Of a DNA stretch of 64,000 bases, positions 31,592 to 52,071 are shown piece after piece; position 1 is the stretch's first letter; the number at the start of each line of letters is the position of its first letter. A program made the position numbers and the translations under genes. Source of the stretch: Winogradskyella tangerina (GTDB lineage Bacteria > Bacteroidota > Bacteroidia > Flavobacteriales > Flavobacteriaceae); assembly GCF_003260205.1 (NCBI RefSeq), contig NZ_QERF01000004.1, forward strand, positions 1 to 64,000, written 5' to 3'. The notes beneath the pieces are model-generated. The model was not told the origin of the DNA. It saw only the letters and a list, made by a program, of their open reading frames with translations, and did no database searches.

Positions 31592-32491
31592 ATGAAAAAA
31601 GTAGTTCCACTGTTTTTAGTCTTTCTCTTGTGTTCTTGTAAAGTTCATCAAAGGTCTAACATCCAATCTAACGAAGAGTTTGTTGTAGAAATGAAACGTC
31701 CTGATACTAGAGGTGGTCTTATTGAGACTGTCCTTCAAGGGGTCTTTTTTGGAGCTCAGTATTTGGCAGATAAAACTTCAGAATCATTGGTTAGCACATA
31801 TTCGCAATCGCTCTCAATAAATAACTATTATAATACTGATTTAGGTGAGGTTGAGAAAACCTATAAAGAAATTCATATTAAAAAGTATTCTAAGCCAAGC
31901 AGTCCAGAAAAAAAGGCACAAATGGAATCTTTTGTAAAAAATGATTTTAGTGCCTTGCCAAAATCTAGAGGTAATACGGCTGCGTTAAATGTTGAAGACG
32001 TCATTAGATTAGAAGAAGATGATATGCTTAATTTTTTTGCTGTTGTTGAAATAATAAGTGATCCTCAGAATCCTGGTATTTCCAGATTAAGCTTCAAAGA
32101 ATTGAGAATTTTCTTTTCAAAAACGAAGGTGTATACAGATGAAGACTTAAATGCTAAGATTTCTATTTCAATTGAAGGGCAGTGGAGAGGTGATGATGGT
32201 ACGCCTCTAAGTGCTACCTTAATCGAACAAGAGTATGATTTCAAAAATCTGAAATATGGCGCAGGTAACTTAATTGAAAAACCAATTCTTTCGCCTTGGT
32301 ATTATGATATTCCAATAACTACGCAATTGGAGGACAATGACAATTATGGAGTTGTAAAAGTTAATGTTCGACTCGAAGAATACGAAGGGAATAAGAGCAA
32401 GTATATCAATAAATTGCCGAGTATGCTTAGTGATAATAAGGACGCCATCATTTCGGATGGAGCAAGCGCAATAGAAAAAATTTCAAACTAA
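31592..32491 (+). CDS. Lipoprotein of the caspase operon, unknown function
   Basis: 299 aa. Short leader with FLLCSCK (C14 or C16 lipidated). I recognise no domain; the predicted secondary structure is mixed with a beta-rich C-terminal half (SISIEGQWRGDDGT, IPITTQLEDNDNYGVVKVNVRL). A TRGG motif (R40-G41) lies close to the lipid anchor. First gene of a four-gene operon: its TAA is followed at once by the TTG start of the CHASE2 gene. Likely an anchored partner of the sensor or caspase. Confidence 0.75.
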   Translation: MKKVVPLFLVFLLCSCKVHQRSNIQSNEEFVVEMKRPDTRGGLIETVLQGVFFGAQYLADKTSESLVSTYSQSLSINNYYNTDLGEVEKTYKEIHIKKYSKPSSPEKKAQMESFVKNDFSALPKSRGNTAALNVEDVIRLEEDDMLNFFAVVEIISDPQNPGISRLSFKELRIFFSKTKVYTDEDLNAKISISIEGQWRGDDGTPLSATLIEQEYDFKNLKYGAGNLIEKPILSPWYYDIPITTQLEDNDNYGVVKVNVRLEEYEGNKSKYINKLPSMLSDNKDAIISDGASAIEKISN

Positions 32492-34424: not shown

Positions 34425-37400
34425 ATGTCAAGATATATTACTGTATTTTTTTTAATTCTATTTTACGCTTCAAAAGCGACAGCTCAAGACAATTTTTTAG
34501 AACTGCCAGAGCAAATTTATGTTTCGGTACTAAGTGATGATAATAAGACTCTCGCTGTTGCTTCCAAGAGGTCTGTGTATTTACTTAATATCGAAAAAAT
34601 GACTTTGGAGAATACCATTAATGTCATTAAGGATCGAAAGAGCCACTCGGCTATTCATAATATACAGTTCCGAAAGGAGGATAACTTTCTGGTGGTTAAG
34701 ACTTTTGAACTTGAAGAGTTCGACTCACGTTATGAAAATGAAGATCTTTCAAAGGATATTAACTACATCTATGATCTCAGAAATAATTCATTAGTTGATA
34801 CCTATTCGGCCTTGACTTTCAAATCCGGAAAAATTACCGCATTTAATGAACTTAAGAAAGATATATTTTACGGGGATAACGACAATAGTTTCTTAGAATT
34901 AAAGGAAAATATGTCGTTATACATCAATGATACCTTATTAAATAAGGAACAGTATGATGAATGGGTTGAGTTTATACAATTCATGAAAAACTCGGAAAGT
35001 GCGAGTATAAGAAATGATGAAGGCATAGCCATTGAAGTCAGAGGTAAGATCAGGCACCTTAAAACATTCAACAATGATCAAAAGTTAGCCATCGTTTATT
35101 TTGATAGCATTATCGATGATCAAAATCATTACAAACTCGAAATTCGAAATACTTCAACCTTAAGTTTGATAGCTGAAAAAGACTATAAAACACCTCGAAT
35201 TATTAGTGAAATCGAATTTGCTGAGGATGATCAGTATTTTGTTTTATTTGAAGATAAAATATCGCCAGATTACTACAAGAAGCAGTCTAAGACTTCTAAA
35301 TTCTGGGAGAATTTCCGGCCAGATGTAAAAGTAACTTTTTTAAGCTCGAAGGATCTGAGTAAACCAGACGCGATTGTTGATGTCGATAAAGAAGATTTCA
35401 TTGTTGATAACGGAACGTTCTGGGTTATTGAAGATGACAACATCGCCAATTATCAATATGAAACAAACAAAGTCTTAAGCAACATCTATACTTTAGATTT
35501 TGAGTTTCACAGAACCAGAGGATTCTATAAAATTAATGAAAATGAATGCCTTATAATTGGAAGTGCCAAAGACAAACAAGAGAAAGATTACATTACCAAA
35601 AATGGAGTGATCAAATATTCCCTTCAGGACACAAAACTATATAATCAAATCGCCGCAGTTAAAAGCGTTGACACACTTTACAATACCTTTTCACCATTTC
35701 TTCAAAATAATGATTTTAAGGGAGATGAAATTCAATTTAGTGGTGATAATTCTGTGTTTATGGCGTCGACGAACTCTCAAGATGAATTTCAATTGTGGTC
35801 ATTAAAAGCACGTAAAAAATTACACGATATAGATCTAAAAATTAGTTCGAAAGCACATCTCGATGCAAATGGAGAAGCGGTTTTAATTTTTTCAAGACCC
35901 GATAATATGATAAATGGGTTTTTATTACGAAAATTAGATATAACTACAGGTGAAATTACAAGTTCGGAGCACACTATTTCAGATGGTAAAAATCCCATGT
36001 TTGCCGATTTTTATCACAACTATGAAGGATCAAAATGGATAGGAATAGATGAGCATACGGTTTGGTTGGTCGACACAGAATCATTGACTTTTGAAAAGAT
36101 CTGGGATGATAAATTTGAGTCAGGATATGTGTATGATTACAATCTTGTTTATGCCGATGAAAAAACTGTTTATTTCAAAGGAACGGCCTACAGTAGAATT
36201 GCCAAAAGAAAAATACAAGGTGTTTGGGCCTACGATATTGCCACCAATACCATTGAAAAATTCGATATATATACAGATAAGCGTAATGTGTTTCGCTATG
36301 GAAATAGGCTATTATCTTATGATGAACAAGGGCATTATATTCATAATTTGAAGACTTCTGAAATTGAACACCAATCCAATGTAAATCCTGCACATATTTA
36401 TAATGTGATCAATCACAAAAACACTTCGTATTTACTGTTAGGAGATGGTCAGCAATATTCTCAAGACCTGAAGGTACTCGAGTTGGATAACAATACCAAC
36501 GATGAGAAAAACGATTTTATATTAAAGATTCGCTATCAGGATTATTCGAGTTTTAAACACTTTTTTGCAATTGAGGAAGGACTTGTGTATATGGATAATG
36601 AATGGAATATGCAGCTTTACAGTCCAGAATTGCAATACACAAGCAAATGGAAACAAAATTCAAAAGCAAAACATTTTGGAACAATTAACATAGATCCGAC
36701 TGGTAGTTTGATATTTGATGGTAACTATACACTCAATCTAAAAAGTCTCGAATTTCAAGAAATTGAGCTTAACCCAAATATCCATGACGCCGCTGGGTTC
36801 TTCTTATCACCTTACGATAGTCAGTCGCAGCTCATGTTCGTAAGATCGTATGGATTTAGTGATAATAATGGTAATGCCTATGTACAATGTAAATTGGTGA
36901 AGAATAATGGTACAAAGGATATTCTTTGGACAAGCAATAAAATAACAGATAAAGATATTGTTAGCTTCACCAATGTATTGGTCTCAAAGAATAAAAAGTT
37001 CGCGATCCTGTATAAAGATTCTTATCTCAATCATTATTATGTTCTCGATATTGAAAAGCAAGAACTCTCAAAACGCAAGTTGCCATTCAAAGAGCGTTTT
37101 CTGAGTGATCGGTGTTTTATAATGGGCGATTCCAAACTGTATGTATACGATCCTGGAGCCATGTCTGATATCGATTCAAAATCGAAAACCTATGTTTATG
37201 ACATAGCTACGGGCAAACTCGTTACAACTCTTAAGGAAATTCAGATTACAGATGAATTTTCTGGCGGCCAATTACTATACATTAATTGGGAAACTGGCTA
37301 CAATGCCTTTTATCTTGGTCGTTTGAAGGCTAATAAATTGAAAGAAGATTTTGATTATAATTCTTATAGTATAGGAAATAGTAGTTTTTACGATGCGCCT

Positions 37401-38972
37401 CGGAATCAGATCATCAGTTCCTTAACTACACAGCTTTTCTTCTGGAAAATGGACGAAAAATCACCTTATAAAACCATAGATTTTGGTGGTGATATCAATA
37501 GTACTCTAGCATTAAAGGATAAATTATATGTGCTTCTTTGGAACAATAGTGTAAAGGTTTTAGACCTCAATGAACAAAAGGAAGTCCTTACCATACAATT
37601 ATTAGAGCGCAATAATATTATTAAACCCGTATTTCTAACTCCCGAAGGATACTTTAAAGCTGCCAAAGAAAATATTAGAAATTATCATTTTGTAAAAGGA
37701 AAAGATGCCTTCTCAATCTTGAATTATGAGCTATTTTTAAATCGTCCTGATATAATTTTATCACGACTTGAGTTTGCCAATAAGAAAGTTGTTAAGGTCT
37801 ATAAGGACGCCTATTTAAAACGTCTTAAACGCAATAATTTAACTGAGGATATTGATTACTTTAGTTTGAAACGACCAAGTATTGAATTACTGAATAAAAC
37901 CGATATTAAGGTTGTAACCAGTGACAGAAAACTGTCATTATCGATTAAAAAATCTGAAGACGTTAGTCAACTAATGGTTTACATGAATGGCGTTCCGGTG
38001 TATGAAGATACAAGTGCAGAATCACAGGTCGTATTTACTGTGGAATTAACAAGCGGAATTAACAAGATTACAATTATCGGTTCTGATAAGAATAGTATAG
38101 AAAGTGATCCTATCACTCTTGAAATCACAAATACTTCGGAACAGCTGCCACCAAATATTTATTATGTCGGAGTAGGTGTATCGCAGTATGAAGATACTTC
38201 AATGAATTTAAGATTTGCCGATATTGACGTGCGAAGTATTTCTGAAGTTATGGCTGAAAAATTTGAAGGACGAATTCAGATAGATACGCTCAACAATAAG
38301 AATGCTACTAAAACTGAGATTTTATCATTAAAAGAGAAGCTAAAATCAACAAGCATTAATGATATTGTTATTATTTCTTTCTCCGGACATGGATTAGTCG
38401 ATGACAACCAAGATTTTTATTTCGCTACTCACGATGTAGACTTCGACAACCCAAGTGAAAAAGGATTGTCTTATGAAAACATCCAGTATTTACTAGACGA
38501 TATCCCTGCACGAAAGAAAATTCTATTAATCGATGCTTGTCATAGTGGTGAACTAGATGATTCCGACATAACCGAACCTGTTGCCACTGATAGAAACGTC
38601 AAAGGCTATCGTCCTGAAGGCGCCAAAGGATCCAAGGGATCTAGAATAAGATCTGTAGGAGGTGCCGACAGTTTCGAGTTGATGCAAACCTTATTCTATG
38701 ATCTCGATCGCGGTAATGGTGCCTTCATAATCTCAGCCGCTGGCGGTAAAGAATTTGCTTTTGAAAGTGATGATTGGGGCAATGGTGTATTCACCTATAG
38801 TTTTATTAATGCCATAAATGAACTGAGTAGAACAGGCTATCCGCACGACGGTAAAATAAACATTTCAGAATTGAAGAATTACATCTATAAAAGTGTATCT
38901 CGTTTAACCAATAACCAACAAAAACCTACCTCGAGAGCCGAAAATTTGGAATGGGATTGGGTTTTGGAATAA
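34425..38972 (+). CDS. Giant exported caspase (peptidase C14) with beta-propeller N-terminus
   Basis: 1515 aa with a signal peptide ending ATAQ. Residues about 25-1130 are WD40/PQQ-like propeller repeats (for example LYVLLWNNSVKVLDLNEQKEVL), followed by a short beta-sandwich (about 1180-1270) and a C14 caspase domain (about 1275-1515). Catalytic His is H1322 (SFSGHGL) and catalytic Cys is C1372 (LIDACHSG). A basic Gly/Lys/Ser linker, AKGSKGSR (K1401-R1407), sits between the large and small subunit regions, where caspases are processed. Propellers would recognise a partner or damage signal. Last gene of its operon; stops 9 bases from the end of the opposing operon. Confidence 0.92.
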   Translation: MSRYITVFFLILFYASKATAQDNFLELPEQIYVSVLSDDNKTLAVASKRSVYLLNIEKMTLENTINVIKDRKSHSAIHNIQFRKEDNFLVVKTFELEEFDSRYENEDLSKDINYIYDLRNNSLVDTYSALTFKSGKITAFNELKKDIFYGDNDNSFLELKENMSLYINDTLLNKEQYDEWVEFIQFMKNSESASIRNDEGIAIEVRGKIRHLKTFNNDQKLAIVYFDSIIDDQNHYKLEIRNTSTLSLIAEKDYKTPRIISEIEFAEDDQYFVLFEDKISPDYYKKQSKTSKFWENFRPDVKVTFLSSKDLSKPDAIVDVDKEDFIVDNGTFWVIEDDNIANYQYETNKVLSNIYTLDFEFHRTRGFYKINENECLIIGSAKDKQEKDYITKNGVIKYSLQDTKLYNQIAAVKSVDTLYNTFSPFLQNNDFKGDEIQFSGDNSVFMASTNSQDEFQLWSLKARKKLHDIDLKISSKAHLDANGEAVLIFSRPDNMINGFLLRKLDITTGEITSSEHTISDGKNPMFADFYHNYEGSKWIGIDEHTVWLVDTESLTFEKIWDDKFESGYVYDYNLVYADEKTVYFKGTAYSRIAKRKIQGVWAYDIATNTIEKFDIYTDKRNVFRYGNRLLSYDEQGHYIHNLKTSEIEHQSNVNPAHIYNVINHKNTSYLLLGDGQQYSQDLKVLELDNNTNDEKNDFILKIRYQDYSSFKHFFAIEEGLVYMDNEWNMQLYSPELQYTSKWKQNSKAKHFGTINIDPTGSLIFDGNYTLNLKSLEFQEIELNPNIHDAAGFFLSPYDSQSQLMFVRSYGFSDNNGNAYVQCKLVKNNGTKDILWTSNKITDKDIVSFTNVLVSKNKKFAILYKDSYLNHYYVLDIEKQELSKRKLPFKERFLSDRCFIMGDSKLYVYDPGAMSDIDSKSKTYVYDIATGKLVTTLKEIQITDEFSGGQLLYINWETGYNAFYLGRLKANKLKEDFDYNSYSIGNSSFYDAPRNQIISSLTTQLFFWKMDEKSPYKTIDFGGDINSTLALKDKLYVLLWNNSVKVLDLNEQKEVLTIQLLERNNIIKPVFLTPEGYFKAAKENIRNYHFVKGKDAFSILNYELFLNRPDIILSRLEFANKKVVKVYKDAYLKRLKRNNLTEDIDYFSLKRPSIELLNKTDIKVVTSDRKLSLSIKKSEDVSQLMVYMNGVPVYEDTSAESQVVFTVELTSGINKITIIGSDKNSIESDPITLEITNTSEQLPPNIYYVGVGVSQYEDTSMNLRFADIDVRSISEVMAEKFEGRIQIDTLNNKNATKTEILSLKEKLKSTSINDIVIISFSGHGLVDDNQDFYFATHDVDFDNPSEKGLSYENIQYLLDDIPARKKILLIDACHSGELDDSDITEPVATDRNVKGYRPEGAKGSKGSRIRSVGGADSFELMQTLFYDLDRGNGAFIISAAGGKEFAFESDDWGNGVFTYSFINAINELSRTGYPHDGKINISELKNYIYKSVSRLTNNQQKPTSRAENLEWDWVLE

Positions 38973-38981
38973 GGTAACGAC

Positions 38982-41966
38982 CTAGTTCAGAATAAACTTC
39001 TCAATCGTATTTGCACTATACATCTCCTTCAGTTTATTCGATCTAAATAGCGTTTGATCTACCTTTCGTCGCATGGCATCACTTTGACTATTATTCCCTT
39101 TAAAATTGAAATAAACTGATGCTAAAAGATAATCCGTGGTACGTTCTATTTGGGTAAGTAAGTTGTAATAATAATCGGTGTTTTCGATGTTGCCAAGATC
39201 AATGCTAGCTTTAGTGAGGATTTTAAGCAAATCGGCGTTTTGCGTTTTACTATTCTCCTTGCTAATCATTGGCAATGCAATCTTAGCTGCCTCTTCAGGA
39301 TTTGCATTTAAGTACAGAAATTGAGCATAAACGATTCCCGTTTTTGCAGTTTTATCGATATCAAAGGCGAGTTTATAAAGTTTTTCGGTATCGCTTTTTG
39401 TTCCAAATTTTAGTTTATCCTTTGCAGTATTGAGAAGATATTCAACAATTTCAGTTGTCACTTTATTATCCACTGAAAATTCAGAGGCGCTTAATAAACT
39501 AGATTCTGCACCTTCCAACTGATTGGTTTCTACTTGGCTGTATCCTAAGTTTTTATTGCCTTTAACAAAGGAAGCATCTATTGAATTTGCCTTTTCATAA
39601 GCACTTATGGCTTCAGAATAATTCTTCGTGTTAAAGTGGGTCTGACCCAGTAAATACCAGAGGTCTGGTGTATTAGGCAACTTTTCTATTGCACTGGTTA
39701 AGAAGGAAATAGAACGTTCTGATTTACCTTCTGAATTATACAAATTCACTAAAGCGCTATAGGCTTTACCATAAGTTTCACTGTATTCGAGTGCTTTTAA
39801 ATATTGACGTTCGGCTTCCGCTGTTTTTCCTAATTTGAAATTGAGAAAATTACCATAATTATAATAAGCTTCAGGATTATTACTATTTTTTGAAATGCCA
39901 CTTTCGAAGGCTTCAATGGCTAATAAAGGCTTTCTCAACTGCGACTTAAGCCAACCCAGACCAGCATAGGCTGTAACATGATAAGGATTTAATTTTATGG
40001 CCTTGGAATACAGGGAGTCGGCTACTCTTAATCGCGATAATCGCTTGTATTTCTGACTAATAAATTCTGCATATTCAAAATATACAATTGCCGATTCTGG
40101 ATTAGATTCAATGGCAGTGAGCAATAGTTTTTCGGCCGCTTCATCAGGAATATTATTGGTTTGAATATATTTCAATAAACCTGATGATTTTAATTTGGTA
40201 GAATCTGTTTGAAATGCCTTGGAATACCATTCTTGTGCAGCTTTTGAATTACCCTTCAATGCTTGAAGGTCGCTCATTTTTTGAAGCGCTACTATGTTAT
40301 TCGGATTCTCAGCAATAGCTTTTTTAAAGTAAGTCTCTGCAAGCTGATATTTACCCTTCATAACACTAATCTCACCCAGTTTTAAATTCGCATTTAAACC
40401 CTCATTTCCTAAAGAATTGTTGAGGTGATTCTCGGCCTCCTCAAAGCGGTATTGATCGATAAAACTATTACTAATATTAATATCTGGGCTTTCCCATGAT
40501 TTGATCAAAGACTTGGCCTTATTGAAATGATAAAAGGCGCTGTCATAAATCTTTTGATTATTGAAGATTAACCCTAAGGCATTATGAATATAAGCAGCAC
40601 GTGGCTCTAGCTTTAGAGCTTTATTTAGTTGTCGTTTTGCACGTTCAAATTTTGAATAGTTATTACTTCTAATAATCGCATAACTCTCTAGTAATAATTG
40701 ACTGGCTTGGATACGGTCTGAAAGAAAATTATCCTCACCCATAAGTTCTAAACAAATTTCAAGATGCTTCGATTGTTTAATAAATTCACGACTTGGTGGA
40801 AGTACAGATGAGCCTTCAATATATAAGTTTATAAGTCCCTGAGCTTCATTAGATAAAACGGTTAATAAGGAACTTTGCATTTTAGTTTTTAGACCTTCAG
40901 GTATTGATGTGTCTTCTAGTGTTGCCTTATAAATCTCATAAGCGCTTGAAGATTTGCCGTAATAAGATTTACGATCAAGGGCCGATTTAAATTTTGAAAT
41001 TAGACTACCGTAAGTTTTGTCTTCTAAGGCTGTTGTTTTAATACTCCTTGATGCCAAAGCGATGGTCTCGTCGATAGTTGATGCAATGTCTTCGAAGTTA
41101 ATGACAGCAGAATTTGAACTGACCTTTTTCAAAATGGCTCTGTCATTCTTAGTTCGAACAACAGGAATTTGCGACCGATTGAATTTTTCAGTCACAACTT
41201 TGTTAACATTATCGTATAAATAATCACCAAGCTCTCTGTATGTTATTGATGCATCATTATTGATATCGGCGTTATTAGCAAGACCTTTTATGAGATAATA
41301 GGTGAAGTAACCATGCTTTACGTCGCTACCTTCATGCGATAATTCATTTTCACCGCAGCTCAATATTTTTGTTGAATTCTGAAACATGGCCTGAATAGTA
41401 CCCATATTGGTTTGTGCACTTTTTTCAGACGTAAAACCAGAGCGACAAGCATCTAAGATCAAAATGACTCTAACACCTTTTTTTGAAAGATTTTTAATGA
41501 TGGTATTTATTCTATCCAAAGGAATAGTCCCACCCGAATAATACTCTTGCTTTGCGCTGGCATCTGCAGCCAACAAAAACCCTTCTTGCTCTCCAAAGTC
41601 ATCAACTACATCGCCATGACCGGCAAAATAGATATAGAGGATATCGCCTTCTGCACTGGCATTGAATTGTTTTTTTAATTCGAGGGTAACATTAAGTGCA
41701 ACGGCATCTTTATTTATGAGCAGACTAATATTTTCATCTTTTAAGCCTTCAATATCTTTTAAGTAATTCTTAAAAAGAGCCGCATCATTGTCGGCATAAT
41801 TTAATTTCAAGTCATCCGAATTGTAGTCCGAAACGCCAACGATTACCGCTCTTTTAGTTCCTGTTACAGTGGAGCTTACCGCATTGGGTTTTGAGCCTCT
41901 AGTCTCATCCTGAGACCAACAAAAACCTATGGTAAAGATTAATAAATATGTAAAAATGTGTTTCAT
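38982..41966 (-). CDS. Exported caspase with long C-terminal TPR array
   Basis: 994 aa from the ATG at 41964-41966, which gives a clean signal peptide (MKHIFTYLLIFTIGFCWSQ); a longer frame from a TTG at 42020 has a hydrophilic extension and is less likely. Caspase domain about 35-270 with H117 (YFAGHGD) and C174 (LDACRSG). Residues about 430-980 are TPRs (for example GKYQLAETYFKKAIAENP, NYSEAISAYEKANSID). A TRGSKP motif (R23) follows directly after the signal peptide. Last gene of the seven-gene minus-strand operon, 46 bases after the CHAT gene. Confidence 0.92.
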   Translation of the reverse strand: MKHIFTYLLIFTIGFCWSQDETRGSKPNAVSSTVTGTKRAVIVGVSDYNSDDLKLNYADNDAALFKNYLKDIEGLKDENISLLINKDAVALNVTLELKKQFNASAEGDILYIYFAGHGDVVDDFGEQEGFLLAADASAKQEYYSGGTIPLDRINTIIKNLSKKGVRVILILDACRSGFTSEKSAQTNMGTIQAMFQNSTKILSCGENELSHEGSDVKHGYFTYYLIKGLANNADINNDASITYRELGDYLYDNVNKVVTEKFNRSQIPVVRTKNDRAILKKVSSNSAVINFEDIASTIDETIALASRSIKTTALEDKTYGSLISKFKSALDRKSYYGKSSSAYEIYKATLEDTSIPEGLKTKMQSSLLTVLSNEAQGLINLYIEGSSVLPPSREFIKQSKHLEICLELMGEDNFLSDRIQASQLLLESYAIIRSNNYSKFERAKRQLNKALKLEPRAAYIHNALGLIFNNQKIYDSAFYHFNKAKSLIKSWESPDINISNSFIDQYRFEEAENHLNNSLGNEGLNANLKLGEISVMKGKYQLAETYFKKAIAENPNNIVALQKMSDLQALKGNSKAAQEWYSKAFQTDSTKLKSSGLLKYIQTNNIPDEAAEKLLLTAIESNPESAIVYFEYAEFISQKYKRLSRLRVADSLYSKAIKLNPYHVTAYAGLGWLKSQLRKPLLAIEAFESGISKNSNNPEAYYNYGNFLNFKLGKTAEAERQYLKALEYSETYGKAYSALVNLYNSEGKSERSISFLTSAIEKLPNTPDLWYLLGQTHFNTKNYSEAISAYEKANSIDASFVKGNKNLGYSQVETNQLEGAESSLLSASEFSVDNKVTTEIVEYLLNTAKDKLKFGTKSDTEKLYKLAFDIDKTAKTGIVYAQFLYLNANPEEAAKIALPMISKENSKTQNADLLKILTKASIDLGNIENTDYYYNLLTQIERTTDYLLASVYFNFKGNNSQSDAMRRKVDQTLFRSNKLKEMYSANTIEKFILN

Positions 41967-42012
41967 TAGGGACATTTTCAATGTTACCAAATTACAATTT
42001 TTCTTTCGGTGG

Positions 42013-44088
42013 CTACTCAATTAATACAAAGGCAGCCCATTTTTCTGGGTTGTTCGGATAAGATTTAAGCATTTTTCTTTGAGTTTCTATAAAGGCTTCG
42101 CGAACTGTATTATTATTTAACCACAACTCATAGAAACTGGTCATAAATTCTGCAGTTTCGATATCTGGCACCTCCCAAAGACTCATTATGATCATTTGAA
42201 CACCAGCCATTTTAAAAGCGCGCTGTAGTCCATAAACGCCTTCATTACCTTTGATATCTCCTAACCCGGTTTCACATGCACTTAATACCACTAATTTTGT
42301 GTTAGAAAGATCTAGGTTCGAAATTTCTAGGGCTGTCAGAATTCCGTCATTTCTTTCGTATGGATTGCTTCCAAATTGCCACGCGTAATTGGCATGTGCC
42401 AATAGTAATCCCGAACGTAATAATGGATTCTTGGCTTTCTTAAATTCTACAGTATTTGCACCATTGTCCTTATTGTTATCAAAAAAGAAACCATGAGTTG
42501 CTATATGCAAAACGTTAGGACTTTTACCATTCAGCGATTTGAAAACAGTTTCTGTTGCGTCATCACCAACAAGTTGATCAGATGTCTTAAAATTAGAACT
42601 AAATAAGTCATTGATATTGTTAATCTCAGTGGCTGAGCCTTCAAGATATTCCCAAGATTTAATCAATTGTTGGTCATTCAAATTATCTTGAGACATTAAA
42701 ACTTCAGATAACGATGGTTGATTACTGAAAAGTTTTGTTTTGCCTTCAACATCAAAATCATAATTAATCCCGCCGACAAAAAGCGCATCTTCAGATTCAG
42801 GATTGTTGCGTTTCAAAGTTATAACCTTAGAATTACTCACTTGCTCAAGGTCGTATAACTCGATGAGTCGTTCGTTTTTTTCATTGGTTAATGCAGCAAA
42901 GGCAACTTGATGTAAAATACCGTCAGGAGAAAAGTAGATTTTAGAAACACCTTTTAATTCTTCTTCCAATGGCGAAAGAATTAAATTGTAAATTTCTTTT
43001 GCATAACTAGAGGCATTCACTAAACGGCCTTTTGAACCTCTTGCTTTATATAGATTTGCTGAGGAATTTTGACTTAAGATGGTTTTAATTTCTTTCTCTT
43101 CAAAAAGTGGTATTATCTTCGGGTATCTCCAGTTTTTCTTGAAAAGTTGCGCTACATAAATAGTGTTATCTGTCCATTCGCCATCGTACCGTCTAAAATG
43201 GGTGAATTCTATAGAGATCTCATCCTCCAACAGCGCTGTTCTTCTCCAATTGATAGGTCTTTTGCGCTCATCTTTAAAATGAAACTGATAAATGGTTACT
43301 AATTCAGACTCAAGACCGCCTAAGCGATCTCTACGAAGTTCAAAGTCTTCAACACGTTGCGATTCCGGGAGGCTGAGCTGAAGGGCAATGAATTCTTTTT
43401 CGTTAATGTAGGCGTTTATTTTCTGATTAATATTGGCATTGTTTATAGATCTTAGTTTTCCGAGGATGTCTTTTGAGGTATTTAACAAAGCACCTTTAGT
43501 TAACAGCGTATTATTTACAAGCAGCGTATTGAATACACCGTACTTGTAATTGTATTTGTACGCAAAAGAGTGAAACAAATTAAAATAGGGAAGAATGTTT
43601 TCGTTGATAAAACGCTCTTTTTCATCATTATAGCGTTCGCTCAAGGCTTCTTCTGCATGTGCGAAAAGTGATTGGTTGATTTTGGTAAACGTTTGAATAA
43701 TTTCTCTGGGGTTATCAGTATCGTTATAGAATGCTATAAGATTGACTAAGGATTCTTCAAAGGATTTACGTTCAAATTCTAAATCATCTTGCCTTACTTT
43801 ATTTAGTTCGATATTAGTTTTTAGTTCATTTTGTGTGTCCTTGGTATACCTGTAATAAAAGTTGAGTTTAAATAAAATGGTTTTAAGATTGTGGTTAGAA
43901 TCTTTAAAATTCTCGTAAGCGAAAGCTTTAAGATCTTCACCTTCAATAATGGCCTGCATTACCTTTCCTTCTTTAGCAAGTTTATTGATCTCTTCGATTT
44001 TGGTGTCAAAATATTGCTGAGGTTGGTCCTTAGATTGTGAAAAGGATTGCAAAGTGATAAGAATAATAAATGAAGCAAGAAATTTCAT
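42013..44088 (-). CDS. Exported CHAT-domain protease (691 aa)
   Basis: 691 aa, signal peptide ending SFSQ. A helical N-terminal half (about 25-280) with degenerate TPR-like repeats is followed by the CHAT domain (about 365-691). Catalytic H532 (HIATHGFF) and C605 (LSACETGLG). An ARGSKG motif (R350) lies at the same place, just before the CHAT core, as TRGSKG in the 26786 gene; the two CHAT domains are closely similar (NPLLRSGLLLAHANYAW versus DPLLRSGLIFAGGNYAW). Recent duplication within the region is likely. Confidence 0.92.
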   Translation of the reverse strand: MKFLASFIILITLQSFSQSKDQPQQYFDTKIEEINKLAKEGKVMQAIIEGEDLKAFAYENFKDSNHNLKTILFKLNFYYRYTKDTQNELKTNIELNKVRQDDLEFERKSFEESLVNLIAFYNDTDNPREIIQTFTKINQSLFAHAEEALSERYNDEKERFINENILPYFNLFHSFAYKYNYKYGVFNTLLVNNTLLTKGALLNTSKDILGKLRSINNANINQKINAYINEKEFIALQLSLPESQRVEDFELRRDRLGGLESELVTIYQFHFKDERKRPINWRRTALLEDEISIEFTHFRRYDGEWTDNTIYVAQLFKKNWRYPKIIPLFEEKEIKTILSQNSSANLYKARGSKGRLVNASSYAKEIYNLILSPLEEELKGVSKIYFSPDGILHQVAFAALTNEKNERLIELYDLEQVSNSKVITLKRNNPESEDALFVGGINYDFDVEGKTKLFSNQPSLSEVLMSQDNLNDQQLIKSWEYLEGSATEINNINDLFSSNFKTSDQLVGDDATETVFKSLNGKSPNVLHIATHGFFFDNNKDNGANTVEFKKAKNPLLRSGLLLAHANYAWQFGSNPYERNDGILTALEISNLDLSNTKLVVLSACETGLGDIKGNEGVYGLQRAFKMAGVQMIIMSLWEVPDIETAEFMTSFYELWLNNNTVREAFIETQRKMLKSYPNNPEKWAAFVLIE

Positions 44089-45437: not shown

Positions 45438-47444
45438 CTAGTCTTTACTTCTCACAATCTCATAGACAAATTCTGTACTAAATCCGTCAATTTTACCAGT
45501 TCGTTTATTTCCCTTATTCCCTCTGCTTCCACGAGTTTGAGTATAAGTTTCACCAATAAAATCTTCTAATGGATTATTGCCTCCTGCACTGCGCGTAGAA
45601 ACCGGACCTCTAGTTTGAACGGTCGGCCTGAAATTAATAGGTTTAGACGTTGCGAATCCTTTCAAAATAAGTGTTTCATAAGGATCTCCAAATTGGAAAA
45701 AACAATTATCAAATCGCATTGTTTTACCAGGAGGAATGCGACGTTCGTTATCTGTTAATGTGCAATCGTCATTCGGCATAAAAGGTGCTATTTCGCCCTT
45801 TGAATTTATTTCAATTATGCTAAAATAAAGAGGTTGCTGACTTTTATTTGTAACTTCTAAAAACACAACATCATCTTCTGTATTTACTTTGAAAATACCA
45901 TCGCTATCAATAAATGCATCATCCTCTAAAAACTCGATATCGTCAATCTCAGCATCATATCTAGCAGGGATTAATCTAAATTCGAATTCGTAATCAAAGT
46001 TTTTTAGACTGAGATCCTTCAAATAAATACCCTGAGCATAATTAAAAAGTTTGTTTACAATGTCCTTGAAGTTGTAATCACCATCAATCTTCGTTTGCTT
46101 GTAGATGGTTTCATCACTTTTATTTTGGATATCTTGCCCGCTAACCGTCAGGATTGAAAGTGTACTATTCGACTCCTCAATGATGAGATCGGCATCTAAA
46201 GCATCTTGTACAATACTACCTATTTTCTTTTCACTTAAGAATTTTTCAAGTTCGCGATTTATAGATTTTGAAGACACTGATTTATCCAAATAAAGATTAA
46301 GTTGAATATCTCCGTATGAAGGTTCATCAACAAAAACCCAAAATTCTTTCTCGTTTGTTGAGTTTAATGGTGCCTCTAGTTTTATTATGGCTTCATTGAA
46401 ATAGGCTTTTGTAATTTTACCAGTGGTGATGACGTCTTCATCATTAACCTTTGTTGTTCCAGATGGCAAGATCTTAACCGTTGTTTCTGCAAAAAGGTGT
46501 TGTAATTTGCCAGCATTGATCTTTATGATATCAGCTCTAGATACTTTTGACACAGGGAAATAAGGTTGTTGTTTAACGTATTCGCCACCAAATAATTTAT
46601 AATCTAAATCACCTTCTGCAGTAGGTGTCTGATTTGGTGAAATTACATTCATGTTTGCCGAAATTGATGAGAACAACTTCCTGTAAGTAACGTCAGAACC
46701 TAAGTCTGACATGGCTTTAGAAAATGCAAAACTTAGCGAACCATAACCTTCATATTCATAGTTAAGTTCATCTGCTGAGGCACCAGATAGCATCACAAAA
46801 GGTGCTGCTTCTGGTCCGGCCTTTGTAGGTTCTAAGAGTCCGCTACCTGCCTTGTTTTTTTCTTTATTTGGTGTCCATCCTGGAGGTGCAAATGTAGCCT
46901 CCCCACCGCGAGCTTTCCCGCCACGTGTAGCAGAACCAGAATGACAACTATCTAATAGTATCAGTAATTGTCCGGTTTTACCCAAAGCATTCCTGAAATT
47001 GGCAATAATATTTCCAAGTTCATCATCTCTAATATGATTTTCACCTTTGTAGTTTGATGTATATCTAACTAGGGCATCATAGGGTACAATGGACTCGTCT
47101 TTATCATCAATTTCTTCACCATTATCATCGAAGATCTGTTGTCCATGACCAGAATAATGGATGACTACAATATCTCCAGGTTTAATTTTAGATTGTAGAT
47201 CATTGATAGCTGCTAAAATACCGACTCGTGTGGCTTCAGCGTTTTTTAAGACTATGATGTTCTCTTCTTTAAATTTTTGATCTAACAACGTATTCTTTAT
47301 TAGCGGTACATCATTTACAGAACTTATAGAGGACCAACCTGTACGTGCTGGATATTCACCAACAGCCACAATAAGCGCATATTTTTCGGCCATAGCATTG
47401 AGGCTGAAGGCCATCATAAGTGTAAGAAGTATAAATTTCTTCAT
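45438..47444 (-). CDS. Exported caspase (metacaspase-like, 668 aa) with C-terminal domain
   Basis: 668 aa from the ATG at 47442-47444 (a TTG six codons upstream is the alternative). Signal peptide ends AMAE. The C14 domain (about 22-285) has H100 (HYSGHGQ) and C167 (LLDSCHSG), close to metacaspases. The linker after the Cys carries TRGGKARGG (R174, R179), the spot where metacaspases are cut. C-terminal region (about 290-600) is beta-rich with a DUF4384-like tail (VFLEVTNKSQQPLYFSIIEI, PPGKTMRF). The tail has TRGSRG (R638). Likely self-processing protease. Confidence 0.92.
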   Translation of the reverse strand: MKKFILLTLMMAFSLNAMAEKYALIVAVGEYPARTGWSSISSVNDVPLIKNTLLDQKFKEENIIVLKNAEATRVGILAAINDLQSKIKPGDIVVIHYSGHGQQIFDDNGEEIDDKDESIVPYDALVRYTSNYKGENHIRDDELGNIIANFRNALGKTGQLLILLDSCHSGSATRGGKARGGEATFAPPGWTPNKEKNKAGSGLLEPTKAGPEAAPFVMLSGASADELNYEYEGYGSLSFAFSKAMSDLGSDVTYRKLFSSISANMNVISPNQTPTAEGDLDYKLFGGEYVKQQPYFPVSKVSRADIIKINAGKLQHLFAETTVKILPSGTTKVNDEDVITTGKITKAYFNEAIIKLEAPLNSTNEKEFWVFVDEPSYGDIQLNLYLDKSVSSKSINRELEKFLSEKKIGSIVQDALDADLIIEESNSTLSILTVSGQDIQNKSDETIYKQTKIDGDYNFKDIVNKLFNYAQGIYLKDLSLKNFDYEFEFRLIPARYDAEIDDIEFLEDDAFIDSDGIFKVNTEDDVVFLEVTNKSQQPLYFSIIEINSKGEIAPFMPNDDCTLTDNERRIPPGKTMRFDNCFFQFGDPYETLILKGFATSKPINFRPTVQTRGPVSTRSAGGNNPLEDFIGETYTQTRGSRGNKGNKRTGKIDGFSTEFVYEIVRSKD

Positions 47445-47462
47445 AATAAAATATTTTAGCAA

Positions 47463-48887
47463 TTAGTTTAAGTCGAACAGACTAAATGAGATACCGAAAT
47501 AATAGCCGAAATCATAGACGTTTCTTGTAAAATCATCGACGTTATCAAAACCTGTAGTATCGCCAACGGATAAACCATTTGTAAGTTGTTTTACAGGTCC
47601 ATAGGCTAAACCGCCCGACAGTGATAGTCGGCTTTTACTGCCAAAGAAAATTGAAGGTCCAAAAAGGAAATTCACACCGTCAATACTATCATTGGTAGAA
47701 ATTGGTATGGAGAGCCCAAAACTTCCACCGATATTAAAGTTTTCACCCATAAATGGATAGAAATTGATCATGGTACTTAGGTTTGGCACGAAGAAATCAT
47801 TTTTGTCTGCACCAATCACACCACTATCTAAAAAGTATTTGTTAGAGTTTGAGCCAAAATTATTTAAGGTCATGGCTACGCTGGTATTGATCTTAAAACC
47901 ACCTTTAGATCTTAACTTAATATGCCTCGTTTTTAGGGTTGTATTAGTATCATCCACATCTCTATCATTAGAAAAATCACTTTGCATGAATTTCAATTCA
48001 ATATCTACTTTATCTGCTGATAATTCATAGTCATAAGTCTGCTCGAAATTAGAAGCTTCTAAGGTTGTGTAGAGTGCACGTAACTCCTGCAAACTTTCAA
48101 GACTTCTGTTTGTAGATTGTGAGAGGTTAGCCATAAGACGTTGCAGATCTGCTAAAGCAATGTTTCTCGACACCAATTCGCCACGAGATACTTCTTCATC
48201 TTCCATAGATGTTTCTAATTCGTTAGACATGGCATTGATGTTATTTTCTAATTGAGATCGACTATCCTTTATAGATTTTTCTACTCTTGCCAAATAGACG
48301 TAAAAGTTGTATTTAGCACTTGGCAAACGCACATCTTGTTCAGCGTCGGCCGTCTCAACTAAATTTTTCATTATAGTCTCTTTGTCTAAATTAGGATTGA
48401 GAAGATTTGATAACAATGTTGTTTTTAGTGCTGAAACATTGGTCATAGTATTATTTAAATCTTCAAAATTAGTTGTCGCGGATGCACTTCCTCTCGAGCC
48501 ACTTTCAGAACTAAAGATCTTTGTATCGGGTAAATTTGATGTATTCAGATTTATATCATCATCCGTAAAAGATTTAATTCCGCCTAGTAAAGAACTAAAG
48601 TTAAATCCTTGTCCGGCTGAAACTAGATCTTCTTCTACAACATCTGTTTGTACTTGAACTGCAAAAGGATTTACATTCTGAAGTTTTAGTTCTACCAAGC
48701 TATTTCGTTTTATTCGAGAATCGTTTAGCGTATCTGAAACGTTTCCGTTTTTATCTAACTTTAAGTATTTAACTTCCTCGGTTTGGTAGTCGTAGGTAAC
48801 TCTATAGCGGTCTTGTCCAAATACAGTCATTGAGCAAAGAAGTGCTATCAAGAGTGTGTAAATTGATTTAAAGTAGTTTGTTTTCAT
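47463..48887 (-). CDS. Exported coiled-coil plus outer membrane beta-barrel-like protein
   Basis: 474 aa, signal peptide ending VFGQ. N-terminal beta region (26-95), a Gly/Ser linker with GSRGSAS (R132), a helical coiled-coil segment (about 175-275) and a C-terminal part (about 290-474) of alternating strands ending FGISFSLFDLN, as in an outer membrane barrel. No enzyme motif. In an operon of proteases it may be the membrane target, a scaffold or a pore. It lies between the alpha/beta hydrolase and the caspase, 18 bases before the latter. Confidence 0.75.
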   Translation of the reverse strand: MKTNYFKSIYTLLIALLCSMTVFGQDRYRVTYDYQTEEVKYLKLDKNGNVSDTLNDSRIKRNSLVELKLQNVNPFAVQVQTDVVEEDLVSAGQGFNFSSLLGGIKSFTDDDINLNTSNLPDTKIFSSESGSRGSASATTNFEDLNNTMTNVSALKTTLLSNLLNPNLDKETIMKNLVETADAEQDVRLPSAKYNFYVYLARVEKSIKDSRSQLENNINAMSNELETSMEDEEVSRGELVSRNIALADLQRLMANLSQSTNRSLESLQELRALYTTLEASNFEQTYDYELSADKVDIELKFMQSDFSNDRDVDDTNTTLKTRHIKLRSKGGFKINTSVAMTLNNFGSNSNKYFLDSGVIGADKNDFFVPNLSTMINFYPFMGENFNIGGSFGLSIPISTNDSIDGVNFLFGPSIFFGSKSRLSLSGGLAYGPVKQLTNGLSVGDTTGFDNVDDFTRNVYDFGYYFGISFSLFDLN

Positions 48888-48908: not shown

Positions 48909-50342
48909 TTACTGTTTTATTTTCCAGTAAATGTTGTCTTTTAGTTTTGCCATATACAATCGTTTTCTATCGAGGGCGCGTTGCCCAGATTGTATAATAT
49001 CAAAGATGTCGGCAATAATGGAATTGGTGTCTGCAAAATAGGAATGACTTAGAAAACTTGTGTCGATACCTGTGGCATCAATAGTTTCTACGCCTTTTAC
49101 AATTACCATTTTATCTCCAGCATCTCCGGCTCTGTCATTTCCATGAAGCATTTTAGAGGCCTTTAGGGCCAAATCATCGGAAGAGACATATAATGTTATT
49201 GGTTTTTTTGTTTTGGAGACCATTTGAGGCGCAATTTCATTTTTAAAAACATCTGCATCAATATCTGGTGCAGCTAAAATGATCTCTTTAATTTTTGAAC
49301 GAAGCTCTGGTTGATCTTCCAATACCTCAATAAGAGCTCTGGTTAAACCTCTATTGCCCATACTATGGGCAACGAGATAAATTTGCTCTGCTTTACATTT
49401 TGAAAGATAATCTTGTAAAAATCGTTTGATATTTTTACGTGACCATTCAATATTCTCTTCGTCTTTACCATATCTGAATGTTGAAGCTTGTGAAGGCCAG
49501 CTGTAGAATACCGCTTTCCCATCAAACTTTAGGTCGTAAGATATTTGAGCGGTGCGTTTGGCCGCCTCACTGAAGGAAGTATTGTAACCGTGAACAAATA
49601 AAAAGGTACTTTTCTTTTCAGATTTTTGAATGTCATTAGCCAAGCGATCAAAAAAGTATTTCTTCTCCAAGAGTGAAATTTTTTGAAGCATTACATGCTT
49701 AGAAGGGTCTTCAGAAAATTCAAATTTCCATATTGAAGGACTTTCAATTTCACCAATTCTATGGTCGTGAGGAATGCTCACTTCAACAATACCATATTTT
49801 ATAGAAGAGCGTTTGTTTCCGAAGGCCTCATTTAAATCTTTTGAATTTGTGTAATTCCGATCGGTTCCGAAAAAAACAGGAAGTTTTACAAAATCGGGTT
49901 CTTTGCCTTTACCTCTATCAATAGCATCAGGATCTACATAGAATAGGCATATTCTATAATTTTGCTCAACAGTAGTGCCGTTGACAATATAAGTGATCCA
50001 AAGTTTAAAATCACCCTGATTTTTAAAACCGTTATTGGCCAGTAACCAGAAACGAAATTCAAATCGATTAAAGCTTTCTAGTGATTCAAATGTGCGGTTC
50101 TTATAATTGGCCTCAATCTGAATTTTTAAACTATCTAGCTGAACTAATGAATCAACTTTCGCAAGCTTAAAATTGGAATAATCACTTCTATTGGTAAGGC
50201 AAGAATCGTTCTGTGTGATATTACGATCTAATAATTCTAAGTAATTATTATTCTGACTAAAAATACCAGAAGGAAGGATGCAAATACATATCACCATCAG
50301 GCATCTGTAAAAGCTTTTATGTGCATCTATTTTAGGGTACAT
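48909..50342 (-). CDS. Exported DUF900-type alpha/beta hydrolase
   Basis: 477 aa. Hydrophobic export signal (MVICICILPSGIFSQ). Residues about 155-420 are the DUF900 alpha/beta hydrolase: PVFFGTDRNY, oxyanion motif FVHGYNT (249-255), nucleophile S327 in AHSMGN, and an acid in APDID (D360) or SSDD. The family is esterase/lipase-like. With an N-terminal region of about 120 aa of unknown fold. Trypsins and alpha/beta hydrolases are recurring effectors in caspase-linked bacterial conflict systems; here it would act in the envelope. 48 bases after the trypsin-ankyrin gene. Confidence 0.88.
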   Translation of the reverse strand: MYPKIDAHKSFYRCLMVICICILPSGIFSQNNNYLELLDRNITQNDSCLTNRSDYSNFKLAKVDSLVQLDSLKIQIEANYKNRTFESLESFNRFEFRFWLLANNGFKNQGDFKLWITYIVNGTTVEQNYRICLFYVDPDAIDRGKGKEPDFVKLPVFFGTDRNYTNSKDLNEAFGNKRSSIKYGIVEVSIPHDHRIGEIESPSIWKFEFSEDPSKHVMLQKISLLEKKYFFDRLANDIQKSEKKSTFLFVHGYNTSFSEAAKRTAQISYDLKFDGKAVFYSWPSQASTFRYGKDEENIEWSRKNIKRFLQDYLSKCKAEQIYLVAHSMGNRGLTRALIEVLEDQPELRSKIKEIILAAPDIDADVFKNEIAPQMVSKTKKPITLYVSSDDLALKASKMLHGNDRAGDAGDKMVIVKGVETIDATGIDTSFLSHSYFADTNSIIADIFDIIQSGQRALDRKRLYMAKLKDNIYWKIKQ

Positions 50343-50390: not shown

Positions 50391-51926
50391 TTATAATCTT
50401 CCTTTGCGTGCTTTTTTCAAATACTTCGCTAAAGACTTATGTCCTGCGCGTTTAGCAACTTTCTCAGGTCGTCTTTTGTCTTTATTTTTGGCCTTGGCGC
50501 TAACACCTTGCTCAATTAATATTCTAACCATTTCAAAATCACCATTCTTCGCAGCTAAGTGCAAAAGATTGTCATTTCTCGATGTTTTTACTTTTGAATC
50601 GGCTCCATAATCAATGAGTGTCAACACAACATCGTTCTGACCATTTTTAACCGCCTCCTGCAAAGCTGTGTGTTGATAGTTTAAACCGGCATCAGCAAGT
50701 ATCTCATTTTCTAACAATAGCTTTAATGCATCAAGGTTTTTATTACTGATTGACAGATCAATTAATTCTCTAGCGTAGTCATCAGAAAGTGTTTTAGCTG
50801 TGGTTTCTAAAATTCCTTCAAGTGCATAAAGATTGTTAACCGAAATCGCCAAGGTTTCGAGTCTGCCGTTCGATTTCGCATGATCGTGATTATAGATCCA
50901 ATTATAGGCATTCCATGTGTCGAATCGGTCCGAAAGATTATTGATCACTGCATAATGCAAATTTTCATAAACAGCCATGATTAATGCAAAACCCGGTACT
51001 GACGTTATTTTATGAGCTTGGCAACCCGCAGTATATCTTACTGAATTCCACTGTACTGTTTTTATACATTCACAGTCTGAATCGTAATAATAATCTCCAG
51101 TTAAACTCCAATCGTCATCGTAGGTTACGGCACCTCTTACTAAAATTCCTTCTAAAAAACCGTTCTCATCAAAAACTGGTCCACCAGAATTTCCTGGGAA
51201 AGAGTCTATGTCACTCTTAAACCAATTACTAGGTGAAATATCTACAACAACTGCATTGGTGGAGAACTTTAGCGGTAATCCCTTAGGAGATCCTATTGTA
51301 TTTATTGCGCCACCGTTTAACACAGAACCGCTCGTTCTGAAGCGATATGGTGTTCGGTCTGATTTCCGTTTTAATTTTAATACCGCATAGTCGTCTTCTG
51401 TTTCGTCGTCGAGTTTTGAAGTAATAATACTTTCTACCTCATAAATATTGTCTTCGCTAAAGTTTAGTTTTCTATTATTAATGAACTTCAGGTCACTCGT
51501 ATAATCAAAAACCCAAACTATACCTTCTGCTTCTTCCATCGAATTGATGCAATGACCAGCTGTAACCAAAATATCTGGTGCTATCAAAAACCCCGTACAG
51601 GATCCTATTGCTGGTTGATCTAAAAATCTAACATCATCTGAAATTTTGATGTCCCTGCCGTATTTATTTTGAATTTTTTCTCGCAAGGACCAGGAGTAGA
51701 ATTCTTCATTGAATATGTTGTTTCTAGAAACCATTACGGCGGTGGCACGAGCAAAGTCTTGAAAGCCTTCTGCATCTTTGACCTCCACACGATCATCATC
51801 TCCAAATACACCTCTAGTTACTTTTGTACCTGGTTCGGCAAAAGGGTACTCGATGATTCTTTGGTCTTGTGCGCTGAGCGAAATGAAACAAATTAATAAG
51901 AAAAGAGTTGAGGATAAATTCTTCAT
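50391..51926 (-). CDS. Exported trypsin-like serine protease with ankyrin repeats
   Basis: 511 aa from the ATG at 51924-51926 (MKNLSSTLFLLICFISLSAQ is a signal peptide; a longer start adds seven residues). The protease domain (about 95-345) has the full triad: H125 (TAGHC), D179 (DDYAVL) and S247 (GNSGGP). Residues about 355-511 are ankyrin repeats (DVVLTLIDYGADSKVKTSRNDN, LLHLAAKNG). Between signal peptide and protease lies a propeptide-like segment with VTRGVFG (R38-G39), a plausible activation site. First gene of the seven-gene minus-strand operon; ankyrins could bind a substrate or keep it inactive. Confidence 0.92.
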   Translation of the reverse strand: MKNLSSTLFLLICFISLSAQDQRIIEYPFAEPGTKVTRGVFGDDDRVEVKDAEGFQDFARATAVMVSRNNIFNEEFYSWSLREKIQNKYGRDIKISDDVRFLDQPAIGSCTGFLIAPDILVTAGHCINSMEEAEGIVWVFDYTSDLKFINNRKLNFSEDNIYEVESIITSKLDDETEDDYAVLKLKRKSDRTPYRFRTSGSVLNGGAINTIGSPKGLPLKFSTNAVVVDISPSNWFKSDIDSFPGNSGGPVFDENGFLEGILVRGAVTYDDDWSLTGDYYYDSDCECIKTVQWNSVRYTAGCQAHKITSVPGFALIMAVYENLHYAVINNLSDRFDTWNAYNWIYNHDHAKSNGRLETLAISVNNLYALEGILETTAKTLSDDYARELIDLSISNKNLDALKLLLENEILADAGLNYQHTALQEAVKNGQNDVVLTLIDYGADSKVKTSRNDNLLHLAAKNGDFEMVRILIEQGVSAKAKNKDKRRPEKVAKRAGHKSLAKYLKKARKGRL

Positions 51927-52071
51927 AATAGTCATAATTAATAGCAAGTTAAAGTTATATTATTTTATGATTTTAACAAGTAATATGCCAAAATGATAAA
52001 TTATAAATTCAGACTTTGAAGAATTATTATATTTTTTAGGGTGCTTATTATTGCATTTTTAGCCCTGATTA

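Follow-up and report, generated by a model that had tools for sequence, protein, structure and literature searches.

The 64,000-nucleotide window of Winogradskyella tangerina DNA analysed here (contig NZ_QERF01000004.1) encodes a metacaspase, denoted MCA, with a conserved Arg-Gly (RG) dipeptide in the linker between its p20 and p10 regions, and RG recurs at conserved places in several of the proteins encoded nearby. Our best overall explanation, to which we give an even chance, is that MCA is exported, is matured at R179 and cuts partners that carry [R/K]G, including a trypsin-like protease with ankyrin repeats (TrypAnk). The wider proposal of an envelope caspase cascade, in which one Arg-Gly mark would let the exported metacaspase fire the whole co-inherited set of exported effectors, is more tentative.

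In the proposed order of events, MCA would be exported, probably Arg-specific and synthesised as a zymogen, and it would mature, most likely in trans, by cleavage after R179 (A-R/G-G) in the p20-p10 linker. The [R/K]-G bond would be the shared cutting mark of a co-inherited protein set, with sites in the linker of a giant caspase, at the N-terminus of a caspase-TPR protein, in the propeptide of TrypAnk, in a variable loop of a 474-aa protein and, twice, in a lipoprotein. Cleavage of TrypAnk after R41 would free G42 at the place where V8-type proteases gain their S1 pocket, and the metacaspase would thereby switch on this serine protease. Sequences, conservation, register and co-occurrence are observed; the cutting of RG, the part of MCA in it, the order of the steps, the extracytoplasmic setting and any role in cell death or defence are inferred.

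Metacaspase and its linker

The sequence-only reading had placed a metacaspase-like protein at positions 45,438-47,444. The protein does lie there, but on the minus strand, which is the coding one, frame 1 of the plus strand being full of stops. With the ATG at 47,444, the residue numbers of that reading (C167, R174 and R179) hold and FVMLSGAS occupies residues 216-223; the double Arg-Gly linker that it described, TRGGKARGG after LLDSCHSG, is present. The caspase domain of MCA (PF00656, E 2.2e-17, above the Pfam cut-off) corresponds to peptidase family C14, and a Pfam match to DUF4384 in the C-terminal region is below its cut-off. The N-terminus, judged by eye, resembles a signal peptide, and MCA is probably exported.

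The predicted model of MCA (mean pLDDT 83.6) had Arabidopsis metacaspase 9 (AtMC9, 8a53) as its best structural match (Z 24.1, rmsd 3.5, 238 aligned residues); further matches included Geobacter GSU0716 (Z 23.8) and MALT1 (Z about 22), over a span of approximately residues 16-288. A p10 region follows p20, with model residues 18-288 aligned to AtMC9; in the comparison with Yca1, the second aligned stretch is weak (6.9 bits). In an alignment of 64 rows (63 of 76 references plus the window protein, with L030 omitted for an X), D45 and D165 are invariant, as is the catalytic dyad (Table 1). The S1 residues of TbMCA2 include Asp95 and Asp211, and its calcium ligands are Asp173, Asp189, Asp190 and Asp220 (PMC4357240). 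D45 and D165 match Asp95 and Asp211, the acidic S1 residues of metacaspases (C14B), by motif and published numbering rather than by overlay, and are likely the S1 acids of MCA.

Of 102 relatives, 80 were retained. Removal of 13 duplicates from 100 family rows left 87, of which 83 have an aligned Cys and yield 80 distinct linkers; this count covers proteins with the C-terminal region, with remote relatives such as L110-L115 outside it. Natural knock-outs, that is, catalytically dead MCA paralogues, were sought among the 87 rows and none was found: the four rows without an aligned Cys lack the domain at that place, and one of these has a caspase domain at its own C-terminus.

Auto-processing at R174 or R179 had been suggested from the sequence. 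A linker cut is plausible, given the metacaspase fold, the invariant D45 and D165, the low-confidence linker and the RG conserved at a sliding distance; the two arginines are, however, not equal candidates. Arginine occupies Cys+7 (R174 in MCA) in 78 of the 80 linkers and lysine in the other two, with Gly as the next residue in 76. This Arg is fixed and is kept in relatives without the second RG: the remote L110, L114 and L115 have Arg at the Cys+7 position and no second RG nearby. R174 follows D165 by nine residues, as Asp220 follows Asp211 in TbMCA2. Because of this equal spacing, which is not an overlay, R174 (Lys in 2 of 80) probably occupies the place of one of the four Asp ligands of the calcium site, and it is probably structural.

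The second RG behaves differently. An RG beyond Cys+8 is present in 79 of the 80 distinct linkers, whereas shuffling each linker (500 rounds) gave 17.9 on average and 31 at most; at least two such RG are present in 29 of 80. Its position slides (Cys+13 in 37 linkers, Cys+12 in 29, up to Cys+22), while Gly stays: beyond Cys+8, Gly follows 108 of 144 Arg, compared with only 22 KG for 322 Lys, and GR occurs 6 times. R179 thus suits a recognised bond, and we consider its processing probable. RGGKARGG is common to the MCA of the window, all six full-length orthologues of the same genus and the L012 fragment; the eighth row of that alignment, 35% identical, reads RGLAKTRG. The remainder of the linker (about 182-215) is variable, and pLDDT is below 50 at residues 170-174 and 200-202 of the model. 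The sole exception to the second RG, a tandem second copy of MCA (L028:8894-10924), has AHGG and keeps the catalytic dyad, which counts against the cascade. Two further RG sites in the C-terminal region of MCA, R612 and R638, were absent from the earlier observation; RG occurs within the last 90 residues in 74 of 82 MCA rows, versus 3 of 83 for a 90-residue core stretch.

The executioner caspases 3 and 7 resemble MCA in fold (Z about 20) and are cut by another protease 12 residues after the catalytic Cys (C163/D175 and C186/D198), the same distance as candidate R179; they differ in their Asp specificity, in forming dimers and in belonging to animal cells. Cleavage in trans is favoured because R179 lies only 12 residues from the catalytic Cys of MCA, and a partner protease, instead of MCA itself, could make this cut.

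Among metacaspases, the type II enzymes 9 and 4 of Arabidopsis share the fold of MCA (Z 24.1 and 23.3), and type II enzymes are described as being cut in the p20-p10 linker (PMC5756287). MCA differs from them in its signal peptide, its C-terminal region and the Arg at the calcium-ligand place of TbMCA2, and its linker of about 45 residues (171-215) is shorter than the 66 residues given as the criterion for bacterial type II (PMC6426788). The segment from Cys to p10, with Cys and CHSG included, measures 47-67 residues (median 50) in the 80 linkers and 49 in MCA. A 2017 review states that cleavage between p20 and p10 never occurs in type I metacaspases (PMC5756287); a 2022 study of the type I enzyme CgMCA-I of Candida glabrata describes a cleaved linker, with cuts after R307, K263 and R54, and judges cis cleavage hardly compatible with them (PMC9622860). 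CgMCA-I is like MCA in its order of p20, short linker and p10, with the R307 and K263 cuts around the linker, but is calcium-dependent and is cut in the linker 25 and 69 residues after Cys238, compared with 12 in MCA (PMC9622860). The orthocaspase MaOC1 of Microcystis, likewise a prokaryotic C14 peptidase, autoprocesses in E. coli and is described as lacking the p10 region that MCA has (PMC5756287). MCA was not classed as a calcium-dependent enzyme of type I or II.

Gene cluster and its Arg-Gly sites

Seven genes, for TrypAnk, a DUF900 hydrolase, the 474-aa protein, MCA, two CHAT proteins and the caspase-TPR protein, are tightly packed on the minus strand, and the opposite strand carries those for the lipoprotein, a CHASE2 protein, a 258-aa protein and the giant caspase (Table 1). 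The CHASE2-domain protein (window 32,492-33,661), encoded between the lipoprotein and the giant caspase, is a possible sensor for the cluster; the product of window 24,731-26,773, near the cluster, carries a sorting domain for type IX secretion. The 474-aa protein may be outer-membrane-like.

Table 1. Positions in the window of the metacaspase, its neighbours and their candidate sites.
Feature	Position	Strand	Remark
C14 metacaspase (MCA)	45438..47462, ATG at 47444	-	probably exported; caspase domain ~20-288
Catalytic His100, MCA	47145..47147	-	invariant 64/64
Catalytic Cys167, MCA	46944..46946	-	invariant 64/64
p20-p10 linker, MCA, residues 171-215	46800..46934	-	
Arg174, Cys+7, MCA	46923..46925	-	probably structural; R 78 / K 2 of 80 linkers
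Arg179, MCA	46908..46910	-	favoured processing site R179-G180; sliding RG beyond Cys+8, 79/80 linkers
Arg612 of C-terminal RG, MCA	45609..45611	-	edge of low-confidence segment 613-622
Arg638 of C-terminal RG, MCA	45531..45533	-	at least 90% conserved in 64 rows; 635-650 pLDDT <50
474-aa protein directly upstream of MCA	47463..48887	-	no family above cut-off
R132-G133, 474-aa protein	48489..48494	-	indel-rich stretch; 28/28
DUF900 alpha/beta hydrolase	48909..50342	-	Pfam
TrypAnk, trypsin-like protease with ankyrin repeats	50391..51947	-	probably exported; His128, Asp182, Ser250
R41-G42, TrypAnk	51810..51815	-	predicted zymogen activation site; 24/24
CHAT-domain protein, 433 aa	44117..45418	-	Pfam
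CHAT-domain protein, 691 aa	42013..44088	-	Pfam
Caspase-TPR protein	38982..42020	-	probably exported; Pfam
R-G soon after signal peptide, caspase-TPR	41895..41900	-	9/10
Giant protein with C-terminal caspase domain	34425..38972	+	Pfam
K1401-R1407 linker stretch with KG sites, giant caspase	38625..38645	+	[KR]G 19/19 distinct linkers
Lipoprotein	31592..32491	+	lipobox judged by eye; two conserved RG, R40-G41 and R126-G127

Across 78 loci (77 with MCA), the 474-aa protein was present in 29, TrypAnk in 21, CHAT proteins in 24 and another caspase in 32; the 474-aa gene lies within 250 bp of the MCA gene on the same strand in 28 loci. Among 59 other Winogradskyella genomes, MCA was detected in seven and TrypAnk in the same seven (in one of them as a remnant), neither being found in the other 52; the caspase-TPR protein was found in six of the seven and in none of the 52 (thresholds 1e-10, 1e-15 and 1e-12). 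Beyond Winogradskyella, MCA was seen without TrypAnk in G065 and, weakly, in G087, which counts against the cascade. A TrypAnk remnant, a 115-aa open frame, accompanies a full-length metacaspase in the Winogradskyella locus L124 (genome G025).

A second trypsin family of nine members occurs about 200 bp or less from MCA in eight loci (L047, L053, L057, L067, L087, L098, L099 and L101), so that MCA is paired with two trypsin families; Trypsin_2 was detected in all four members scanned and a PDZ match in one of these four. Other variants include genes for sigma-factor-like and anti-sigma-like proteins, identified by reading the sequences, in four Saprospiraceae loci (L077, L081, L085 and L089), which also encode a family of about 510 aa with [SA]RG and weak Pfam matches to M48 in two of three scanned; a protein that resembles the C-terminal region of MCA and itself ends in a caspase domain (L025:12021-14102); and an extra 582-aa cluster member with a caspase domain (L018:11365-13110).

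The basic linker K1401-R1407 that the sequence-only reading had pointed out in the giant caspase is present and conserved in kind. Its 19 distinct linkers, all with [KR]G, contain 24 such dipeptides, compared with a shuffled mean of 9.1 and maximum of 19; where the end motif was missing, a fixed length of 55 residues was taken as the linker, which raises the chance of a [KR]G, and the shuffles were of the same length. The same reading had described the caspase-TPR protein as lacking such a linker and as possibly single-chain. The first part stands: no RG occurs in the 45 residues from the DxC motif in any of the eight relatives checked, one of which, L038, has a KG. The second needs qualification, as the conserved N-terminal RG may mean N-terminal trimming. 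R132 and G133 of the 474-aa protein belong to its 16 invariant columns (28 rows, identity down to 18%), and a second site, R235, has RG in 23 of 28. In the lipoprotein, the RG of R40 is present in 11 of 11 rows, as is an RG near R126; in 10 of the 11 rows the second Arg shares one alignment column. DUF900 has two RG, and the one beside the nucleophile motif (SMGNRG) is probably part of the architecture.

The enrichment is specific to one order of the two residues. Cluster ORFs contain 4.51 RG per 1000 residues versus 2.14 in others, the corresponding values for GR being 1.50 and 2.39; with MCA left out, the 173 partner ORFs contain 358 RG and 159 GR, and 643 other ORFs of the same loci contain 489 and 550, counts that come from related sequences, so that the Fisher value on them serves as description. 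In a scan for isolated dipeptides, RG was flagged in 4 of the 10 cluster families, compared with 1 of the 12 others, and no other dipeptide was flagged in more than one cluster family. TrypAnk, caspase-TPR and the lipoprotein received no RG flag, which counts against the cascade. The one flagged non-cluster family is the second trypsin family, located within about 200 bp of MCA in 8 of 9 loci; its RG was rejected as the same mark, as Phe or Tyr precedes it and it is missing in L099.

Homologues of the partners without MCA are few and distant and make a weak control for RG. Among 395 genomes, TrypAnk homologues were found in two besides its own, with core-only matches and no RG in either ORF, and the lipoprotein was found in its own genome only. 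Homologues of the 474-aa protein were found in 12 of the 395 besides its own, mostly as C-terminal matches, and 11 of these 12 genomes lack an MCA match; RG occurs somewhere in 5 of the 12 homologues, and [STPA]RG in just one of them, at residue 3.

On balance we favour RG as a cut mark shared by MCA and its partners. Its conservation can also be that of a turn or binding motif, and RG might then be no cut site at all, with R174 and R179 structural (an internal cation replacing calcium, or a turn) and the neighbours' RG serving for binding or turns. The nearly invariant R174, at the place of the calcium ligand Asp220 of TbMCA2 by numbering (PMC4357240), fits this, as does the description of basic residues as not mandatory at the CgMCA-I sites (PMC9622860). 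We nevertheless regard a purely structural role as improbable: the second linker RG slides from Cys+12 to Cys+22, several unlike proteins carry RG in stretches that are indel-rich or of low confidence, and RG is enriched and GR is not.

Activation of TrypAnk

The TrypAnk triad (His128, Asp182 and Ser250) is invariant in 21 rows (20 of 23 references plus the window protein), and the protein has a chymotrypsin fold. The motif RGxxGxDxRxE, which begins at R41, is likewise invariant in 21 of 21. The protease profile of TrypAnk matches the glutamyl endopeptidase BIGEP (1p3c, E 4e-7), with the N-terminus outside this local alignment. Aligned by eye, the chain start of 1p3c, VVIGDDGR, corresponds to GVFGDDDR directly after R41 of TrypAnk, which puts G42 at residue 1; a weak extra alignment with 7uxg (2.4 bits) pairs the GxDDR stretch as well. 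The same register is observed in the overlay of the model on Esp (6pym; Z 18.5), which starts with residue 43 on 68 and hence places G42 on Val67, with which mature Esp begins (PMC3795244). In the model, pLDDT is below 50 for residues 20-44.

In the V8-type group, the S1 pocket is described as forming only after removal of the propeptide, mostly by another protease, which cuts the bond before residue 1 (PMC5508998). From sequence and model, a cut after R41 is predicted to create residue 1 at the bond whose cleavage activates V8-type proteases. TrypAnk shares the fold and, in these alignments, the residue-1 register with Esp and BIGEP and differs from them in its Gly at residue 1, its ankyrin repeats and its best structural rows, those of PR3 and elastase (Z at most 19.7). 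Two of these points weigh on the prediction: V8 with Gly as residue 1 is reported to be about 100-fold less active (PMC5508998), which counts against the cascade, and most structural rows, of chymotrypsin type, pair residue 47 with 17 or 2, making D46, not G42, the first residue. A profile of the TrypAnk N-terminus searched against the PDB retrieved 11 rows, mostly antibody chains, with no serine protease among them.

The invariant D244 of TrypAnk aligns with an Asp of trypsin 3i78, which we take to be the S1 Asp189 by numbering. Because of this alignment, TrypAnk may itself be Arg-specific, cutting itself and others.

Cutting protease, related systems and meaning

That the metacaspase is the cutter is, in our estimate, an evenly balanced proposition. 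The roles might be reversed, with a trypsin-like partner (TrypAnk, or another trypsin elsewhere) as the Arg-specific enzyme that activates itself and MCA at RG, and MCA acting downstream. The invariant D244 and the trypsin-like partner in 30 of 78 loci agree with such an order, as does the verdict on CgMCA-I that its linker sites are hardly compatible with cis cleavage (PMC9622860). A genome-wide search (E 1e-10; both positive controls found) detected no TrypAnk, however, in any of 18 metacaspase genomes, which were chosen for a TrypAnk-less locus and three of which (L047, L053 and L057) carry the second trypsin family near MCA. All 18 keep the linker RG, which argues against a need for TrypAnk and favours the metacaspase or another protease; we consider the reversed order unlikely. 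Trimming of RG as housekeeping maturation by an unrelated general envelope Arg protease is very unlikely: [STPA]RG does occur within residues 19-70 in 13 of the 251 non-cluster ORFs that a crude signal-peptide rule marks as exported-looking, but the partners have it in 35 of 128, and in Winogradskyella TrypAnk and caspase-TPR accompany the metacaspase.

Cleavage of RG by MCA would have parallels in bacterial systems where a protease activates a linked proenzyme, as described for the canu caspase-nuclease and the Hachiman and AVAST trypsin-nuclease pairs (PMC12799240). Those pairs activate nucleases in antiphage defence (PMC12799240), whereas the partners here look exported, and Pfam detected no nuclease domain in 14 window proteins, three of which are without any family above cut-off. 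For EACC1 and related caspase conflict systems, proteolysis by a constant caspase domain has been put forward as the activating step (PMC8195603); the NCBIfam model caspase_w_EACC1 scores 30 bits on MCA, below its cut-off of 140. Assignment to a known anti-phage system is not supported: in PADLOC, three of the nine proteins matched a generic caspase model, TrypAnk gave weak hits to protease and ankyrin models, and there was one TPR hit. The cluster could conceivably have a role in cell death or defence.

No description of a metacaspase-trypsin-CHAT cluster was found in the open-access literature, among the matches listed. To our knowledge, the natural substrates of bacterial metacaspases are poorly known, and a conserved shared cut mark names candidate substrates and the exact bonds from sequence alone. 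The analysis narrows the earlier reading of the linker to R179 and extends it to a predicted Arg-Gly cascade among exported proteins. The shared Arg-Gly marks suggest a protease activation cascade in the bacterial envelope; if true, this would be a zymogen cascade of the caspase type operating there, including the activation of a serine protease by a caspase.
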